Below, piece after piece: positions 18,457 to 25,486 of a DNA stretch of 64,000 nt. The DNA lies in NCBI GenBank assembly GCA_016794025.1, contig JAEUKX010000014.1, forward strand, positions 1 through 64,000, in the 5' to 3' direction. The notes beneath the pieces were generated by a model. It did no database searches. It was not told the origin of the DNA and saw only the letters and a list, made by a program, of their open reading frames with translations. The stretch's first letter is position 1. Each line of letters starts with the position of its first letter. Both the position numbers and the translations under genes were made by a program. This DNA comes from Rhodospirillales bacterium (lineage in GTDB: Bacteria > Pseudomonadota > Alphaproteobacteria > CACIAM-22H2).

Positions 18457-18785
18457 GCCGTCTCGGCGAGATTTCGCCAATTCGGGTTCGTCCGCGCGAT
18501 CATCTGAATCCTCCACGCATGTGGCCAGGTCTCGATGCGCGCGGCGAGCGAACGCGCCGCCGGGATATCGTCGAGCCGCTCGAGCCAGTAGATCGAGAGC
18601 GGGGCGAGTCCGGCAAGGTTTCCCGTCGCGCCGACTGTGAGCTCGCCCTGTGGATCGGCGCCCGCGATATAGACAAAAAACGCGGTCCCGTGGGTCGGCG
18701 ACAGCAAATTCGCATCGCCCGACGCTCTCTGGCCGGCACGCCCACTTTTCTTTTTCGCGCGACCGTCAATTTGCCGCGTCGACAT
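18453..18785 (-). CDS. Degenerate GIY-YIG-fold protein
   Basis: 110 residues from the ATG at 18785 (another ATG at 18803). The C-terminal half, with [20 protein letters not shown] and [20 protein letters not shown], matches the tail of small UvrC-type GIY-YIG nucleases (usual form AxxREKQIKxWxR, NPxWxDL). The N-terminal strand pair [19 protein letters not shown] stands for the GIY/YIG strands. The following segment with the catalytic Arg/His (RRxxEH) is missing and the catalytic Glu helix lacks Glu at its usual place, so it is probably not a nuclease. Its stop shares CTAG with the chemoreceptor gene. Confidence 0.65.
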
Positions 18786-18870
18786 GCCGGGACCATCCTC
18801 CATTTACGATGGTAAGACGTGTTGCGCACGGCTTGCAATGCCCGAAACCACCGCCATACTCGTCCGCTGC

Positions 18871-20301
18871 ATGCCCCCCACAAGAAATACAATCAGCCGC
18901 GCCGTCGTGTTTGCAGCATTTTTGTATGCTCTGGCCGGGTTGCAACCGGCCGTCGCGGCAACAGACGGACTCCATATCGATGGTGCCGCGATCGGGCCGA
19001 TTTGGCTGGTTCCGTTCGCGGCGATTCTGGCGGGGATCGCACTTGGTCCGCTTGTAGCGCCGCACGTGTGGCACAGGCACTACGGTAAGTATGCCTTTGC
19101 CTGTGCGCTGGCGTTCCTTGTCCCGTGCGCCGCGGCGTTCGGAAGCGCGATCGCGGTCTACGAGTTTATACATACATTCACTGTCGAATATGTGCCGTTC
19201 GTCGTCCTGCTTCTTGCCCTCTACGTGACCGCCGGCGGCATCCGCCTGCGTGGCGCGCTTGGCGGGACGCCCGCGGGAAATACCGGCCTGCTTGCGCTTG
19301 GCACCTTGCTGGCAAGCATCATGGGGACCACAGGTGCCTGCATGCTGCTGATCCAGCCGCTCCTGCGGTCAAACGCCGGGCGCGCCCGGAACGCGCACGT
19401 GTTCGTCTTCTTCATCATTCTCGTCGGAAACGTCGGCGGCGCCCTCACTCCGCTTGGCGATCCGCCGCTTTTCATCGGCTTTCTCGAGGGTGTCGATTTC
19501 TTCTGGGTCACCCGCGCGATGTTGCTGCCGATGCTGTTTCTCGCCATTCCGCTGCTAGCGATATTCTATGCGCTCGACCGGCGCATTGCCGTGAGCGAGC
19601 CTCCGCAGGCACCGGCTCCCTCCGAGCCCTTCGCGATCGAGGGCAAGCGCAACATTGCGCTCCTTGCGGCCGTCGTCGGCGCGGTTCTCGTGTCCGGCAT
19701 TTGGCGGGCAGACTGGACAATCGAGATTTTCCATACGGTCATTCCCGGCGAGAATGTCGTGAGGACGCTCGTACTGCTCGCGGTCGCCGCACTGTCGCTC
19801 GCGATCACGCCGCCGGCAATCCGCGAGGCGAACGGGTTCGACTGGGGTCCGATGGCGGAGGTCGCCAAGCTCTTCATCGGAATTTTCATCACGATCATCC
19901 CGGCGATCGCGATCGTGCGCGCCGGGAGCGATGGCGCGCTTGCGTCGCTCGTTGGATTTCTCGATGCCGGCGGGCATCCGAACGACATGGTCTATTTCTG
20001 GGCGACCGGCGTGCTTTCGGCCTTTCTCGACAACGCGCCCACCTATCTGCTGTTCTTCAATCTTGCAGGCGGCGATGCCGCCACGCTTATGACGACGCTT
20101 GCGCGCACGCTGCTGGCCATATCGGCCGGCGCCGTGTTCATGGGTGCGCTTACGTATATCGGGAACGCCCCGAACTTCATGGTGAAGGCGATGGCCGAGG
20201 CGAAGGGCGTGCGAATGCCGTCCTTCTTCGGCTACATGGGATGGTCGTTGGCCGTCCTGCTCCCGCTGCTCGTCCTGCAAGCGATGGTCTTCTTTACTTG
20301 A
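18871..20301 (+). CDS. Sodium:proton antiporter/CitMHS-type transporter (copy 1)
   Basis: About 476 residues from the ATG at 18871 (an alternative at 18838). An N-terminal cleavable-type signal (VVFAAFLYALAGLQPAVAAT) is followed by about twelve hydrophobic segments. Conserved blocks are HRHYGKYAF, NVGGALTPLGDPPLF, LEGVDFFW, FLDNAPTYLLFFNLAGG and TYIGNAPNFMVKAMAEA. They place it in the ion transporter superfamily (NhaD/CitMHS-like, often named sodium:proton antiporter). Substrate unproven. It is followed 61 bases later by a paralogue of nearly equal length. The start is uncertain because no good ribosome site is visible. Confidence 0.85.
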   Translation: MPPTRNTISRAVVFAAFLYALAGLQPAVAATDGLHIDGAAIGPIWLVPFAAILAGIALGPLVAPHVWHRHYGKYAFACALAFLVPCAAAFGSAIAVYEFIHTFTVEYVPFVVLLLALYVTAGGIRLRGALGGTPAGNTGLLALGTLLASIMGTTGACMLLIQPLLRSNAGRARNAHVFVFFIILVGNVGGALTPLGDPPLFIGFLEGVDFFWVTRAMLLPMLFLAIPLLAIFYALDRRIAVSEPPQAPAPSEPFAIEGKRNIALLAAVVGAVLVSGIWRADWTIEIFHTVIPGENVVRTLVLLAVAALSLAITPPAIREANGFDWGPMAEVAKLFIGIFITIIPAIAIVRAGSDGALASLVGFLDAGGHPNDMVYFWATGVLSAFLDNAPTYLLFFNLAGGDAATLMTTLARTLLAISAGAVFMGALTYIGNAPNFMVKAMAEAKGVRMPSFFGYMGWSLAVLLPLLVLQAMVFFT

Positions 20302-20362
20302 CGCGGGCGCCGGACCCCGGCGAGTGTCGGCGGTACGGAAAGCAAGCAAGAAAAGGCAGGGC

Positions 20363-21790
20363 ATGGAAACGTTGCGTCGCAGATTCGGACTTGTCGCCTT
20401 CGTGCTCGGGGCGGCTGCCCTTGCCAGCCCCGCACATGCGGCCGAAGCTCTCGATGGCGCATCGCTTTCGGCATGGTGGGCGGTTCCGTTCGTCGGCGTC
20501 CTTCTCTCGATCGCCATCCTGCCACTTGCCGCACCCGCGCTCTGGCACCACCACTACGGAAAGATCGCGCTCGGGTGGGCGATTGCCTTCGTCGTCCCCT
20601 TCCTTGCCACGCAGCCGGCCGGGCTTGTGGTCGAGACGATGGCGCATGTCATGCTGGCGGAATACCTCCCGTTCCTGATCCTCATCGGGACACTCTTCAC
20701 GATTGCCGGCGGCGTTCTCGTGCGCGGAAACATCCATGGCTCGCCGGGCATGAATGTCCGCCTGCTCGCGATCGGCACTCTCATCGCCAGCATCACGGGC
20801 ACGACGGGTGCCGCGATGCTGATGATCCGGCCGGTTCTCCGTGCCAACGACGAGCGACGGCACAATGCGCATGTCGTCGTGTTTTTCATCTTCCTCGTCG
20901 CGAATGTCGGCGGCAGCCTCACGCCACTCGGCGATCCGCCGCTCTTCCTCGGCTTCCTCAAGGGTGTCGACTTCTTCTGGCCGACGGTACACATGGCGGC
21001 ACCGATGGTGCTCGTCTGCGCCATCCTGCTCTGCGCGTTCTACGTGCTCGACGTCTGGTTTTACCGGTTCGACACGCATCTGCCACCGCGCCCGGACCCG
21101 ACGCCCGATACGCGCGTGCGTCTGGACGGGCAGATCAACCTGGTCCTGCTCGGTGGAGTCGTGGCGGCAGTCCTCATGTCCGGCGTATGGAAGCCCGGCA
21201 TAGAGATCGTCGTCCTCGGAACGCACATGCCGCTGGAAGGTCTGGCCCGCGATGCGATCCTGCTGGCGCTCGCCGCGATCTCGCTGAAACTCACGCCGGC
21301 CGGCGTACGCGAGGGAAATGACTTCACCTGGGGCCCGATCCTGGAGGTCGCGAAGCTGTTCTTCGGCATCTTCGCGACGATCGTGCCGGTCATCGCGATG
21401 CTGCGGGCAGGCCCCGGAGGCGCATTCGCGTCGGTCGTGGCGCTTGTCACCGGGCCCGACGGAAAGCCGAATGACACCATGTATTTCTGGATGTCCGGCG
21501 GCCTGTCGAGCTTCCTCGACAATGCGCCGACCTATCTGGTGTTCTTCAATCTTGCGAGCGGCGACGCCCAAGAGATGATGGGCCCGCTTGCCTCGACGCT
21601 GCTTGCCATCTCCGCGGGGTCGGTCTTCATGGGGGCGAATACGTATATCGGAAATGCGCCCAACTTCATGGTCAAGTCGATCGCGGAGGCCGGCGGCGTC
21701 AAAATGCCGAGCTTCGTGGGCTACATGGCATGGTCGTGCGCGTTCCTGATCCCCTGCTTCGCGATCGTCACGTTCTTCTTCTTCCGCTAG
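20363..21790 (+). CDS. Sodium:proton antiporter/CitMHS-type transporter (copy 2)
   Basis: 475 residues, paralogue of the preceding gene with the same block order (HHHYGKIAL, NVGGSLTPLGDPPLFLGFL, LKGVDFFW, SFLDNAPTYLVFFNLA, TYIGNAPNFMVKSIAEAGG). It has an N-terminal signal ending near SPAHAAE and about twelve membrane segments. The ATG at 20363 has GGCAGGG upstream. The 3' end overlaps the facing RNHCP gene by 23 bases. The two tandem copies may form a hetero-pair or have diverged in ion or substrate; nothing in the sequence decides. Confidence 0.88.
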   Translation: METLRRRFGLVAFVLGAAALASPAHAAEALDGASLSAWWAVPFVGVLLSIAILPLAAPALWHHHYGKIALGWAIAFVVPFLATQPAGLVVETMAHVMLAEYLPFLILIGTLFTIAGGVLVRGNIHGSPGMNVRLLAIGTLIASITGTTGAAMLMIRPVLRANDERRHNAHVVVFFIFLVANVGGSLTPLGDPPLFLGFLKGVDFFWPTVHMAAPMVLVCAILLCAFYVLDVWFYRFDTHLPPRPDPTPDTRVRLDGQINLVLLGGVVAAVLMSGVWKPGIEIVVLGTHMPLEGLARDAILLALAAISLKLTPAGVREGNDFTWGPILEVAKLFFGIFATIVPVIAMLRAGPGGAFASVVALVTGPDGKPNDTMYFWMSGGLSSFLDNAPTYLVFFNLASGDAQEMMGPLASTLLAISAGSVFMGANTYIGNAPNFMVKSIAEAGGVKMPSFVGYMAWSCAFLIPCFAIVTFFFFR

Positions 21791-22097
21791 CCGCCTCGGC
21801 GGCCTTTCGCGCGACGGACTGCAGCGCCTCGCGCGAATCCGCCGGTACCGTCCGGCATCTGCGCTTCGCGCCGCAGACCGTACACGCGTGAACGAGCGAC
21901 CAGTCTCCGCCCTTCGTCTCGACCGAGACCGGGCGCATCAGGCCGCCGCAGGTCTCGGCACGATCGCCGGGGTTCACGTCGACATGCGCGGACCAGAGGC
22001 AGTGCGGGCAATGGTTCGTATAGCCGTCTCCCGACACGCTGCGGCCGCAATTCGCGCAGACGAAATTTTCGACCTTGCGCTGGAATTTCCGGCTCAC
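21768..22097 (-). CDS. RNHCP-domain zinc-ribbon protein
   Basis: 109 residues. Four CxxC-type pairs are visible: FVCANCGRSV, TNHCPHCLWSAHVD (the family's RNHCP box, here TNHCP), TCGG and HACTVCGAKRRC. The set suggests one or two zinc sites, possibly nucleic-acid binding; function unknown. It starts at a GTG (22097) that overlaps the ChrA stop (GTGA), so it is the last gene of the SOD-rhodanese/chrA operon. Confidence 0.82.
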   Translation of the reverse strand: MSRKFQRKVENFVCANCGRSVSGDGYTNHCPHCLWSAHVDVNPGDRAETCGGLMRPVSVETKGGDWSLVHACTVCGAKRRCRTVPADSREALQSVARKAAEAASGRRRT

Positions 22098-23437
22098 AGC
22101 CCGATGATCCAGCGCGCAAGTCCGTAGGCCGCCCCCGCGAACACGAGCCAATGGATTGCCGTGCCAAAGCGGACCAGAGCAAAAAGCGCCACGGCGGCGA
22201 CGGCGACAGCCGCAAGATCGATCCTCCCGGACGATCCCATGAAGACCGCCGTGCCGAGGAAGACCGCGAGATTGAGAACGACGCCGACGACCGCCGCCGT
22301 TATCGCCCCGAGCGCCGCCGACGCCGCCCGGTTCTCGTGCAATCCTTCGATATAGGGGGCCGCGGCAAGGATGAAGAAGAAGCTCGGCAGGAAGGTGACG
22401 TAGCTTGCAAGGAGCGCCCCCATCGCGGCCGGCAATAGCGGATCGGAAGCGGCCGTATTCCAGCCGGCGAAGAAGCCGACATACTGAAGCACGAGGATGA
22501 GCGGCCCCGGCGTGGTTTCGGCAAGCGCCAGCCCGTTCAGCATTTCCGCGGGCGACAGCCATGCGTAGACGCGCACGGCGGCATCGGCAACATACGGCAG
22601 GACCGCATAGGCGCCCCCGAAGGTGACAAAGGCGGCCTTCGTGAAAAGGTCGGCAATATCGAGAAACGGCCGCGTTCCCATCGCCCAGAGAACGGCACCG
22701 ACCGGGATCGCCCACAGTACGGCGAAGACGATCGACAGCCCGGCAAACCGGCGCGATGCATTCGGCGGAAGTGCGGCGAAATGCGGCACCTCGTCACCGT
22801 CGACGGCTGCGCCGTGGGCCCCGCCGGCGAACGGGGATTCCCGGCCGCCAAGCGTGGAAAGCCAGCCGATTCCCGCGGCCGCCACGACAACCCAAGGGAA
22901 CCCGACACCGAGCAGGTGGATGGCGACGAACGCAGCGGCAGCCAAAGCCGCAGGCGGCCAGCCGCCCAGGGCCTTGCGCCCGATCCGCCAGACAGCGTGC
23001 CCGACGATGGCGACGACGACGGGCTTCAATCCATCGAAGATCGCGCCGACAAACCCGGTCTCGCCGTGCGCCGCCGCAAGCCAGGAAAGCGCCAGCATGC
23101 ATGCCATGCCGGGAAGCACGAAGAGCGCGCCGGCCGCGATCCCTCCGGCCGTCCCGTGCAACCGCCACCCGATATAGATTGCCAGCTGGGTTGCTTCGGG
23201 GCCCGGCAGCAATGTCGCGAAGGACAGTCCTCGCAGAAAGGCACGTTGACCGATCCATCGCCGGCCATCGACAAGATCGTGCTGCATCATGGCGATCTGC
23301 CCGGCCGGGCCGCCAAACGACAGGCACCCCAGCCGGAACCAGTAGGCGAGCGCCGTGGCAAAGCCGGGCCGATCCGGAATGGCGGGTGCGGAAGCGTCGG
23401 GCATCGCGTTTCCTCTGCTCTTGAGGTCCTCACTCAT
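22094..23437 (-). CDS. chrA: Chromate transporter ChrA (two CHR domains)
   Basis: 447-residue inner-membrane transporter that extrudes chromate. The N-terminal CHR domain has FRLGCLSFGGPAGQIAMM and LLPGPEATQLAIYIG. The C-terminal CHR domain (from about residue 265) repeats the pattern with FVTFGGAYAVLPYV and ETTPGPLILVLQYVG. About ten to twelve hydrophobic segments. The ATG at 23437 overlaps the stop of the SOD-rhodanese gene (ATGA). The GTG-started RNHCP gene overlaps its own stop, so all three are one transcript. Confidence 0.93.
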   Translation of the reverse strand: MSEDLKSRGNAMPDASAPAIPDRPGFATALAYWFRLGCLSFGGPAGQIAMMQHDLVDGRRWIGQRAFLRGLSFATLLPGPEATQLAIYIGWRLHGTAGGIAAGALFVLPGMACMLALSWLAAAHGETGFVGAIFDGLKPVVVAIVGHAVWRIGRKALGGWPPAALAAAAFVAIHLLGVGFPWVVVAAAGIGWLSTLGGRESPFAGGAHGAAVDGDEVPHFAALPPNASRRFAGLSIVFAVLWAIPVGAVLWAMGTRPFLDIADLFTKAAFVTFGGAYAVLPYVADAAVRVYAWLSPAEMLNGLALAETTPGPLILVLQYVGFFAGWNTAASDPLLPAAMGALLASYVTFLPSFFFILAAAPYIEGLHENRAASAALGAITAAVVGVVLNLAVFLGTAVFMGSSGRIDLAAVAVAAVALFALVRFGTAIHWLVFAGAAYGLARWIIGL

Positions 23438-24357
23438 ACGCTGCCCCTGCCCTTGGCGTCGAGGCTTCCGCCGGACGCGCGCCAGCCGACAATACCGACA
23501 TCGAGATGACGCGCGCGAAAGCCCTGCGCGCGAAGGGCAGCCGCAGTATCCCGGCTGAACGAAAAGCCGTAGACGCAGTAGACGACGATCTCCCGGTCCT
23601 TCGGAAGGCCCGCCGCAAAGCCGTCGGGCGCCGCCGGATCGACGCGCAACGCGCCGGGAAGCACCGTCTCCGCCGCGGCATAGGTCGGCCCGCGCCGCGC
23701 ATCGACGAACACGCCGCCGAAATCGCCGAGCTCGGCGATGGACGTCGCGTAAGGAACCTGCGGCGGGGGCGCGCCGCGCCAGCGTGCGGCCGCCGCAGTC
23801 CAGTCGATCGCGCCGAGCCAGGCGTCGACATAGGCGGTCGCGTTGGCGCCGTAGTCGAGATGGTAGGCGTGCTCGTACATGTCGAGCGCCACGAGCGGCA
23901 CCGCACCCGCGAAACCCATCGTGTGATCGGCACACCACTGGATCGCGAGACGGCCCGAGCGCATCTCGCGCACGAGCACGACCCAGCCGGACCCGCCGGC
24001 AAGCGCCCGGCCACAGGCCGCAAAGCGCGCGCGCCAGGCCTCGTAGGACCCGAAGTCGCGGTCGATCGCCGCCGCAAGATCGGGCGGCGGCGGCATTGCC
24101 GGTCCGAGCGCTTCGAAATGGATCTCGTGCAACAGCATCGAGTTGTAGGCAACCAGCTCCTCGCGCTTGAGCGCGTTCCAGTCGAAGCCTGGCGCTGTCG
24201 CGGGATCAAGTGCTGCCAGCCGCGCCGTGATCGCGTCGAGCCGGCGCACGGCACCCGCGTAGTTGTTCTCGTAGTGGCTGGCGACGAGCCGCTCGCTGAA
24301 CCCCGGATAGGATTCGGGCTTGGCACCGAGTGGCTTCAAGGTCTTCAAATACGACAT
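23434..24357 (-). CDS. Iron/manganese superoxide dismutase fused to a rhodanese domain
   Basis: 307 residues. Residues 1-195 are an Fe/Mn superoxide dismutase with metal ligands His28 (ASHYENNYAGAV), a His in MLLHEIHFEALG, and Asp/His in DMYEHAYHLDYG. Residues 215-300 are a rhodanese domain with the active-site Cys in YCVYGFSFSRDTAAAL. The two domains are joined by a linker containing GAPPPQVPYATSIAELG. It is translationally coupled to chrA. Known chromate operons contain a ChrC superoxide dismutase and rhodanese-containing ChrB proteins, so a role against chromate or its reactive-oxygen products is inferred. Probably cytoplasmic. Confidence 0.9.
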   Translation of the reverse strand: MSYLKTLKPLGAKPESYPGFSERLVASHYENNYAGAVRRLDAITARLAALDPATAPGFDWNALKREELVAYNSMLLHEIHFEALGPAMPPPPDLAAAIDRDFGSYEAWRARFAACGRALAGGSGWVVLVREMRSGRLAIQWCADHTMGFAGAVPLVALDMYEHAYHLDYGANATAYVDAWLGAIDWTAAAARWRGAPPPQVPYATSIAELGDFGGVFVDARRGPTYAAAETVLPGALRVDPAAPDGFAAGLPKDREIVVYCVYGFSFSRDTAAALRAQGFRARHLDVGIVGWRASGGSLDAKGRGSV

Positions 24358-24457
24358 CGTCCGCAATCCTCCCGCAAAAGCCCACAATTCGGGCTTCCGG
24401 AAGGCAGTGCTTGGACGACGGATCGTCTGGGGAAATTGCGGGGCGACTGCCGTTAGC

Positions 24458-24487
24458 CCCGCGCGGGTTTCTATATTCCCGCGCGGG
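24458..24487 (-). promoter_or_regulatory. Twin CCCGCGCGGG palindromes flanking an AT-rich decamer
   Basis: Two copies of the self-complementary decamer CCCGCGCGGG (24458-24467, 24478-24487) are separated by TTTCTATATT. On the minus strand the centre reads AATATAGAAA and contains the -10-like TATAGA. The SOD-rhodanese start lies about 100 bases downstream and the acid-phosphatase stop 24 bases upstream. It could be an operator pair over the operon promoter, or a terminator-like hairpin for the phosphatase gene (no T-run). Confidence 0.4.
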
Positions 24488-24510
24488 TCGCCGATCAAGA
24501 GCCTTTCGCG

Positions 24511-25377
24511 CTAAGGCTTGGGACCGCTCCACGGCTGAAGCGCGGCGCGCTTCGCCGCACGCTGTTCGTCCGGCGACTTCTTGTAGTCGTGGCCGAACGG
24601 CGCGCTCTCGAACGAGCCGTAGGTGGGGTTGGGCAGCACGATCCATTCGCGCCCCCAGCGCTCCTTGTTCGCCTCGAACACCTTGAGCCGTTCGGCCTCG
24701 GAGGTACGGTATTCGTCGACGAAATCGCCGAAATTGTCGCCGATGTTCAGGAGAACACGATAATCCTTGGCGATGAAGGCACGCCGCGTGCCCTTCTGGG
24801 AGGTCCAGTCGGGCTTCTCGCGCGAGGCGAGCACCGTGTCGACATTGCCGCCCATCGGAAATCCCAAGGCCTCGAGATTCTTGACTGTCGACGGCTTCTC
24901 TTCGGCCGTCCGGTTCGTGACGTAGAAAACCTTCACGCCCTTGGACTGGGCGTATTTCGCGAAATCGAGCGCTCCGGGAATGGCAAGCGATGTCTGGCTG
25001 TTGACGAACTGGGTCCAGGTCTTCGGATTGAAGGAAGTGCCTGCAATCACCATCCACGCCTGATAGCCGGAATTGTCCATGAGCGTCTCGTCGGCATCGA
25101 TCACGACCGCCGGCGGCTTGTCCGCGAAAGGCTGGGTCTGCTCGGCCGGCGCGCCGGTCCAGCTCCGGTCGGCGAGCGCCTGATCGAGCCGCATGCGTGC
25201 CAGGGCGAACGCACTGGCAGCAGCGCCTTTGTATTCCACCGAGCGTTGCATCCATAGCACGGCATTGAGATTGTCGTCGGCCGGTACGGGATCCGCGGCA
25301 AAGGCCGGGGCCGCAAAGAGAACGAACAAGAGCGCGCCGGCGGCTACGCCGCGACGGAAATCGAATTTGGCGGGCAC
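24511..25377 (-). CDS. HAD-family acid phosphatase (5'-nucleotidase, lipoprotein e(P4)-like)
   Basis: 288 residues, exported. It starts at a GTG (25377) preceded by GAGGAGG, followed by a signal peptide (RRGVAAGALLFVLFAAPAFA). The catalytic HAD motif I is VVIDADETLMDNSGYQA near residue 80, motif II is VFYVTNRTAEEK and motif IV is LLNIGDNFGDFVDEY. There is no lipobox Cys at the cleavage site, so it is likely a soluble periplasmic form. It removes phosphate from nucleotides or similar esters in the periplasm. Confidence 0.9.
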   Translation of the reverse strand: MPAKFDFRRGVAAGALLFVLFAAPAFAADPVPADDNLNAVLWMQRSVEYKGAAASAFALARMRLDQALADRSWTGAPAEQTQPFADKPPAVVIDADETLMDNSGYQAWMVIAGTSFNPKTWTQFVNSQTSLAIPGALDFAKYAQSKGVKVFYVTNRTAEEKPSTVKNLEALGFPMGGNVDTVLASREKPDWTSQKGTRRAFIAKDYRVLLNIGDNFGDFVDEYRTSEAERLKVFEANKERWGREWIVLPNPTYGSFESAPFGHDYKKSPDEQRAAKRAALQPWSGPKP

Positions 25378-25486
25378 GGGTACACCTCCTCGGGATGCGG
25401 GATGGCCGCAGGGATGGTGTCGCAGGCGCGACGGGCCGCGCAATCGAATTGTCGCAATTCGGGTAACAGCCCGGCGTGGCGGGCCA

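Follow-up and report, generated by a model that had tools for sequence, protein, structure and literature searches.

A probable chromosomal chr operon in reduced form, with a chrB-b RNA leader, a ChrC-ChrE fusion, ChrA and an RNHCP protein, in an uncultured alphaproteobacterium

Three adjoining minus-strand genes in a stretch of 64,000 nucleotides from a Rhodospirillales bacterium (assembly GCA_016794025.1, contig JAEUKX010000014.1, positions 1 to 64,000; the whole stretch is called the window here) encode a superoxide dismutase (SOD) fused to a rhodanese, a ChrA transporter and a protein with an RNHCP domain, and a chrB-b cis-regulatory RNA lies directly in front of them. We read this ensemble as probably a chromosomal chr operon in reduced form, i.e. 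a known kind of system (the chr determinant) in a new arrangement in an uncultured alphaproteobacterium. All four parts, and how they are arranged and conserved, are read directly from the DNA, and the proposed link to chromate is well supported by gene context. A preliminary description of the same DNA had named the three genes, each of which is indeed a real open reading frame (ORF) with Pfam support, and had missed the RNA. The parts of the operon are the following:

24404 to 24461, minus strand: chrB-b cis-regulatory RNA (Rfam RF03086), from cmscan and covariation
23434 to 24357, minus strand: SOD-rhodanese (ChrC-ChrE) fusion of 307 residues, from the ORF, Pfam and an AlphaFold2 model
22094 to 23404, minus strand: chrA, 436 residues from a conserved start at 23404 (a longer ORF begins at 23437), from Pfam, NCBIfam and a genus alignment
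21768 to 22097, minus strand: RNHCP-domain protein of 109 residues with a GTG start and eight Cys, from Pfam PF12647

Judged by sequence similarity, the SOD-rhodanese protein is a ChrC-ChrE fusion, two known neighbours joined in one chain, because its SOD half is 58.5% identical over residues 4-186 to the SOD of plasmid pMOL28 (versus 30% to the other SOD of the same genome) and its rhodanese half finds the ChrE model NF033833 as the best rhodanese model in NCBIfam (51.9 bits, E 6e-14). The SOD part spans about residues 18-195 and the rhodanese part about residues 215-294; Pfam reports Sod_Fe_C at residues 92-191 (E 3e-24) and Rhodanese at residues 215-294 (E 3e-7). An AlphaFold2 model built from 40 sequences has a mean predicted local distance difference test score (pLDDT) of 88.7. 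Among solved structures, Fe-SODs match its SOD half, with 8bhx as the best by E-value (29% identity; TM-score 0.89 by target length). The active Cys that had been claimed for the rhodanese was found as C261, and it is kept in 80 of 81 fusions.

At least 571 stretches of the genome collection were confirmed as relatives of the fusion, and the best 80, all near full length, form the 80 fusion loci considered below; three of them (L016, L017 and L021) lie on the same contigs as genomes G012, G013 and G022 of the order sample and are not to be counted twice. With so many relatives, the idea of a fusion confined to this genome is ruled out. SOD-rhodanese is a common and widespread ChrC-ChrE fusion, which also explains what the protein in the window is. 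With neighbours labelled by their best phmmer matches, a chrA ORF lies within 3 kb of the fusion in 77 of the 80 loci (within 200 bases of the match in 48), and the other ORFs include ChrB-type proteins at 71 loci, ChrF-type proteins at 42 and RNHCP at two. The preliminary description had tied SOD, rhodanese and ChrA to a chromate determinant and had named, as what would speak against it, that such fusions might rarely stand near chrA elsewhere; a check of domain architecture and neighbours found no such rarity, since 77 of 80 fusions have chrA within 3 kb and 71 a ChrB-type ORF. By way of control, the surroundings of nine further SOD genes from the same order, about 1.5 kb on each side, contain no chrA; the comparison is only rough because the stretches reach no further than that. 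A literature search for a SOD-rhodanese fusion in chromate operons found no description, with most subscription papers outside its coverage.

The fusion also occurs on plasmids. Nine plasmid records cover at least 80% of the fusion query; in C. metallidurans Ni-2 the genes are separate and in Cupriavidus USMAA2-4 the frames look broken, leaving seven intact fusions, of which five (L006-L009 and L012) lie beside chrA, chrB and chrF. The chr loci on Rhizobium, Pseudomonas and Acidovorax plasmids carry the same full-length fusion, 42-48% identical to that of the window. These plasmid loci differ from the window in having ChrB and ChrF (L006-L009, L012) and in having no RNHCP, and no chrB-b RNA was found in L005-L010.

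In the window, chrB-b is found at full length with 53.7 bits against a cut-off of 36.5. The leader is conserved across all 10 operons of the genus, and chrB-b scores above the cut-off in 13 of the 14 chr loci searched, including these ten; the one miss (L176) is a contig that begins at the fusion gene. A search model built here from 13 sequences (R1) was run on 92 sources, 80 of them the fusion loci. Its matches stand before the fusion in the window and in L016, L017, L021 and L072; the one in L022 lies elsewhere. Rfam confirmed chrB-b in L072 and L022, and an Rfam search of 13 further loci gave no chrB-b. Among the 80 fusion loci the RNA and ChrB tend not to occur together: a ChrB ORF is missing in four of the five loci with the RNA versus five of the 75 without it (Fisher p 0.0004). 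This is a pattern rather than a proof, because the loci are not independent of each other and some of the contigs are short.

The absence of ChrB itself, as previously described, is borne out: there is none in the operon, and a search of the window's draft genome (86.6% complete) with the ChrB_C family gave no match. The search as such works, because it finds ChrB_C matches in 16 of the 23 genomes of the order. Members of the genus without any ChrB_C match are G000, G012, G013, G015 and G020, four of which have the RNA-led operon, some of these drafts being incomplete. The missing regulator, more usually a protein at this place, is probably the chrB-b RNA.

A survey of the class extended the distribution of the RNA, with a chrB-b match at E 0.001 or better in 24 of 289 genomes, 18 of them over the cut-off. 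Taking 30 chrB-b sites, the window included, members of the chrA, chrC, chrE or chrF families lie downstream at 17, and full-length ChrB is the best downstream match at none of the 30. Elsewhere the RNA precedes transporters of the major facilitator superfamily (MFS; L202, L205, L210, L211, the assignment being by eye for L211, and L220), a weakly lectin-like protein below the Pfam cut-off (L207) and one similar to it by eye (L209), a protein without Pfam match (L224) and a contig end (L226). Three of the 30 sites are at contig ends (L206, L210 and L226), and the downstream gene is assigned for L206 and L210. Further genes downstream of chrB-b are of the ornithine cyclodeaminase family in L200 and L201 (RNA near 1501) and of the PntA transhydrogenase type in L216 (RNA near 1501) and L206 (1501-1554, minus strand, near the contig end); genes of these two kinds may hint at the ligand. 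In G016 and G019 a second chrB-b copy stands before a separate rhodanese-ChrF gene (L179:6024-6070 and L178:4234-4280, respectively).

Two elements of the leader matter for how it might work:

24450 to 24446 with 24408 to 24404, minus strand: pseudoknot within the chrB-b RNA, GCAGU pairing with ACUGC, from covariation
24368 to 24404, minus strand: predicted sequestor hairpin, in which CCUUCCGG (24404-24397) pairs with the ribosome-binding site GGGAGG (24373-24368), from a minimum-energy fold

Both stems and the pseudoknot covary in an alignment of 41 sequences (40 distinct, including the 13 used for model building) that was fitted to the stems and not to the pseudoknot: nine of 16 pairs change on both sides and 95.9% of cells are paired. 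None of 500 shuffles reaches either value, and the signal is lost on a shift of one to three columns. A pseudoknot supported by covariation has been noted for "chrB RNA" in PMC7657543. Compared with the Rfam family, the copy in the window has the same kind of pseudoknot and no structural difference was seen; what is new for chrB-b is its setting, before SOD-rhodanese, ChrA and RNHCP without chrB, together with a sequestor hairpin that overlaps the pseudoknot. In the minimum-energy folds of the leaders, the ribosome-binding site is paired with a CCUU strand that follows directly on the pseudoknot. The leader of the window folds better than all of 200 shuffles (z -4.15), and the pairing probability of sequestor and ribosome-binding site is 0.83 there and 0.66-1.00 over ten leaders, which are related to each other. 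When the strand opposite the site was shuffled, between 1 and 42 of 200 shuffles reached the observed pairing, depending on the leader.

Because the pseudoknot and the sequestor share about two bases, an on-switch is the natural reading of this RNA. The leader would control how the first gene is translated: in the free RNA the strand next to the pseudoknot would cover the ribosome-binding site, and formation of a ligand-stabilised pseudoknot would weaken this pairing and turn translation on. In a more far-reaching version, chrB-b is a riboswitch that replaced ChrB as the sensor of chromate stress in this lineage, its ligand closing the pseudoknot, freeing the ribosome-binding site and turning on a minimal chromate unit, with RNA, ChrA and RNHCP as the constant core and the fusion as an optional part; we put this forward tentatively and consider it rather unlikely in this complete form. 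It is also possible, if doubtful, that chrB-b is a protein-binding leader serving autoregulation, e.g. through ChrF or RNHCP, instead of a small-molecule riboswitch. The genes downstream of it often encode ChrB_C-domain (ChrF-type) proteins, and no ligand of chrB RNA was found in the literature searched, most subscription papers being outside the coverage, both of which agree with a protein-binding leader; the genus members mentioned above, in which RNA-led operons occur without a ChrB_C match, speak against it. So does the layout of the leader, a compact pseudoknot next to a sequestor being a usual riboswitch plan. Either way, the leader offers a testable switch model for a catalogued RNA, and since chrB-b heads operons without chrB in which close relatives vary the next gene while keeping RNA, ChrA and RNHCP, these genomes amount to a natural experiment on the target of the RNA.

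For the reduced chr operon as a whole we propose the following division of labour. From its family, ChrA would export chromate, and the ChrC half, a member of the Fe/Mn-SOD family with a homologue in Ochrobactrum tritici measured as an Fe-SOD, would remove the superoxide formed during Cr(VI) reduction. The ChrE half, with its rhodanese active Cys, may act on sulfur or on a Cr-thiol product, and being fused would keep ChrC and ChrE in a fixed ratio and close together. RNHCP would be made by translation coupled with that of ChrA and would probably serve the same stress.

Several observations weigh against this reading or parts of it. Three of the 80 fusion loci (L024, L027 and L072) have no chrA in the examined stretch, and, as exceptions to the association with chr genes, there is no chr gene within 5 kb of two plasmid fusions from Variovorax (L005 and L010). 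The rhodanese half stays below the equivalog cut-off of NF033833 (51.9 versus 120 bits) and is ChrE-like by position. According to the introduction of PMC4779226, chrC and chrF are seemingly not crucial for chromate resistance in O. tritici. Thirteen of the 30 chrB-b sites do not stand before recognised chr genes within the examined stretch. As for the switch, the G017 leader is not distinguished from its shuffles (42 of 200), the overlap of pseudoknot and sequestor is limited to the two or so bases mentioned, and we infer both ligand and direction, the latter from folding alone. Finally, the SOD half carries Asn at the position of His30 and Ala at the position of Tyr34 in all 81 fusions, which is taken up below.

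Could the operon then serve a stress other than chromate? ChrA and RNHCP might answer another oxyanion or a sulfur-redox stress, with chromate not being the physiological substrate and SOD-rhodanese a general helper against oxidative stress. This would fit with G016 and G018, which keep only ChrA and RNHCP behind the RNA, with the MFS, ornithine cyclodeaminase-family and PntA-type genes that follow chrB-b in other alphaproteobacteria, and with the chromosomal neighbours of the operon, which are the same in relatives, unlike a metal-resistance plasmid. We nevertheless consider it unlikely, as the fusion accompanies ChrB and ChrF families across Pseudomonadota and ChrA passes the cut-off for chromate efflux of the NCBIfam model TIGR00937 (227.1 versus 171.7 bits), in addition to its match to Pfam Chromate_transp (E 5e-70, in two stretches).

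The description of the first half of the fusion as a complete Fe/Mn-SOD stands as regards the metal site and has to be qualified otherwise. The four metal ligands H28, H77, D159 and H163 are invariant in all 81 fusions (two of which have an internal stop); Asn and Ala replace the second-shell residues His30 and Tyr34, and at E 0.001 Pfam gave no match for the N-terminal SOD domain. The two altered positions were located by aligning the fusions with SODs of solved structure and with nine further SODs from the same order, which have His30 in 9/9 and Tyr34 in 7/9; the residue names follow standard SOD numbering. The same Asn/Ala pair occurs in the ChrC of pMOL28 and in ChrC of the type of transposon TnOtchr, the latter taken from a plasmid of Enterobacter on which all four chrC and chrF primers of PMC4779226 have exact matches in these genes. 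Two residues kept by most SODs are absent from ChrC-type SODs, also from the kind reported as an Fe-SOD. Residue features, as given in PMC10172142, also suggest a likeness to SodFM4, and on these features alone: the fusion has the C-terminal His (H145) and has lost the last His of HXXXHH, the ChrC type being in addition without His30 and Tyr34. The tetrameric state given for O. tritici ChrC in PMC4779226 is a further point of likeness.

These replacements bring up the possibility that the SOD half has ceased to be a genuine superoxide dismutase and that its metal site is used otherwise, e.g. on Cr species together with the rhodanese thiol. PMC4779226 describes ChrC and ChrF of O. tritici as SODs; purified ChrC is reported there as an iron SOD, a tetramer with 1.4 mol Fe per mol and with SOD activity, and mutants in chrC and chrF had more reactive oxygen under chromate. 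According to the same source, Cr(III) was the only one of the tested metals to inhibit ChrC, which would suit a role with Cr species, as would the fixed Asn/Ala pair in the fusions and in both reference ChrC proteins while His30 and Tyr34 prevail in the SODs of the order. We consider a loss of the dismutase function improbable in view of the reported activity and iron content and of the invariant metal ligands. Some doubt attaches to that activity, because the BL21(DE3) cells in which O. tritici ChrC was made have SODs of their own.

The third gene is well defined, with PF12647 matching RNHCP at E 2.5e-28 (98.3 bits against a cut-off of 24). In the order sample, which comprises 23 genomes of one family and seven genera, RNHCP is present in 10 of the 11 genomes of the genus versus none of the 12 genomes of other genera. 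The GTGA overlap previously described between RNHCP and ChrA is real: in all ten genus genomes with RNHCP its start and the stop of chrA lie within four shared bases, NTGA (ATG in seven, GTG in one and TTG in two). An ATGA overlap had likewise been described between SOD and ChrA; the string is there (23437-23434) and probably does not mark the ChrA start. Indeed, a start ATGCC(C/T)GACGC is shared by seven of nine genus relatives (G013 and G017 differ) and corresponds to codon 12 of the longer ORF in the window, with its ATG at 23404. The overlap with SOD is not conserved and is thereby ruled out as a sign of coupling.

The gene in front of chrA differs within the genus. It is SOD-rhodanese in five of ten genomes (G000, G012, G013, G019 and G020), a rhodanese-ChrF fusion in three (G011, G014 and G017) and absent in two (G016 and G018), so that ChrC-ChrE and ChrE-ChrF fusions occupy the same place. 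Hence ChrA and RNHCP are the constant pair, and the fusion partner of the rhodanese is either SOD or ChrF, depending on the species.

As a new accessory member of the operon, which it had been proposed to be, RNHCP holds up inside this one genus, where it overlaps chrA in 10/10. Outside it, none of 20 RNHCP loci (three of them weak matches with stops) has chrA within about 1.5 kb. RNHCP matches occur in 22 of 385 genomes of the class, two of them from this genus. In three of 17 loci outside the genus, all from one family, RNHCP lies beside a gene for an HflX-type GTPase (L192, L196 and L197), a weak hint at translation, and in one of 17 beside alaS. These neighbours, the distance from chrA elsewhere and the persistence of RNHCP in genomes near 1 Mb would agree with a general, perhaps translation-related protein of zinc-ribbon type that has merely been co-transcribed with chrA since the ancestor of the genus and has no role in chromate stress. 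We take this to be a serious possibility, although we lean towards a part in the operon's own function, given that the four-base overlap with chrA is kept in 10/10 while the gene before chrA changes or is lost, and given that RNHCP is found in none of the 12 family genomes outside the genus. A structure prediction from three RNHCP sequences had a mean pLDDT of 54 and was not used; comparisons with PHROG and the PDB gave weak matches only and led nowhere, and a literature search on RNHCP found nothing relevant.

The known chr systems share parts of this arrangement. On pMOL28 of C. metallidurans CH34, ChrI, encoded on the opposite strand, is followed by a ChrB protein, the chromate transporter, an Fe-Mn SOD, the rhodanese chrE and another ChrB-domain protein; this is the order chrI-B-A-C-E-F, the last gene being assigned as ChrF by position. 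The SOD (ChrC), rhodanese (ChrE) and ChrA families are the same as in the window, with SOD and rhodanese consecutive; in contrast to the window, ChrC and ChrE are separate, ChrB is present, the system is plasmid-borne, RNHCP is absent and there is no chrB-b match. TnOtchr of O. tritici (chrB-A-C-F) resembles the window in its ChrC with the same Asn/Ala, judged from the primer-matching plasmid copy (L180), and differs in having a ChrB regulator and ChrF, no rhodanese fusion, no annotated RNHCP and no chrB-b match in that copy.

Upstream of the RNA, one further element was picked out by eye:

24470 to 24498, minus strand: promoter-like pair TTGATC (24498-24493) and TATAGA (24475-24470) with a 17-base spacer, by reading the sequence, which is weak evidence

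The pair lies 8 bases upstream of the RNA and matches the consensus at 8/12 positions in the window and at 7-8/12 in seven of ten genus leaders; a stricter scan (9/12) gave no match. The palindrome CCCGCGCGGG occurs twice, 20 bases apart, flanking the -10-like hexamer (24459-24488, minus strand), and is partly kept in relatives.

With carB and greA named by eye from protein starts, the chr operon lies downstream of both in the genus members in which that side of the contig is visible, and also in G001 and G022. In the window a gene for a P4-type acid phosphatase-like protein (24511-25443, minus strand) is interposed between greA and the operon, whereas in several genus members, e.g. G016 and G018-G020, the operon stands directly behind greA. 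At the other end, two tandem CitMHS_2 genes for putative citrate transport (18784-20301 and 20324-21790, plus strand) converge on the end of RNHCP, the second overlapping its last bases. Apart from chrB-b, Rfam also reported PYLIS_3 on a Mesorhizobium contig among the loci (L053:2304-2403, plus strand; 52.5 bits against a cut-off of 38).

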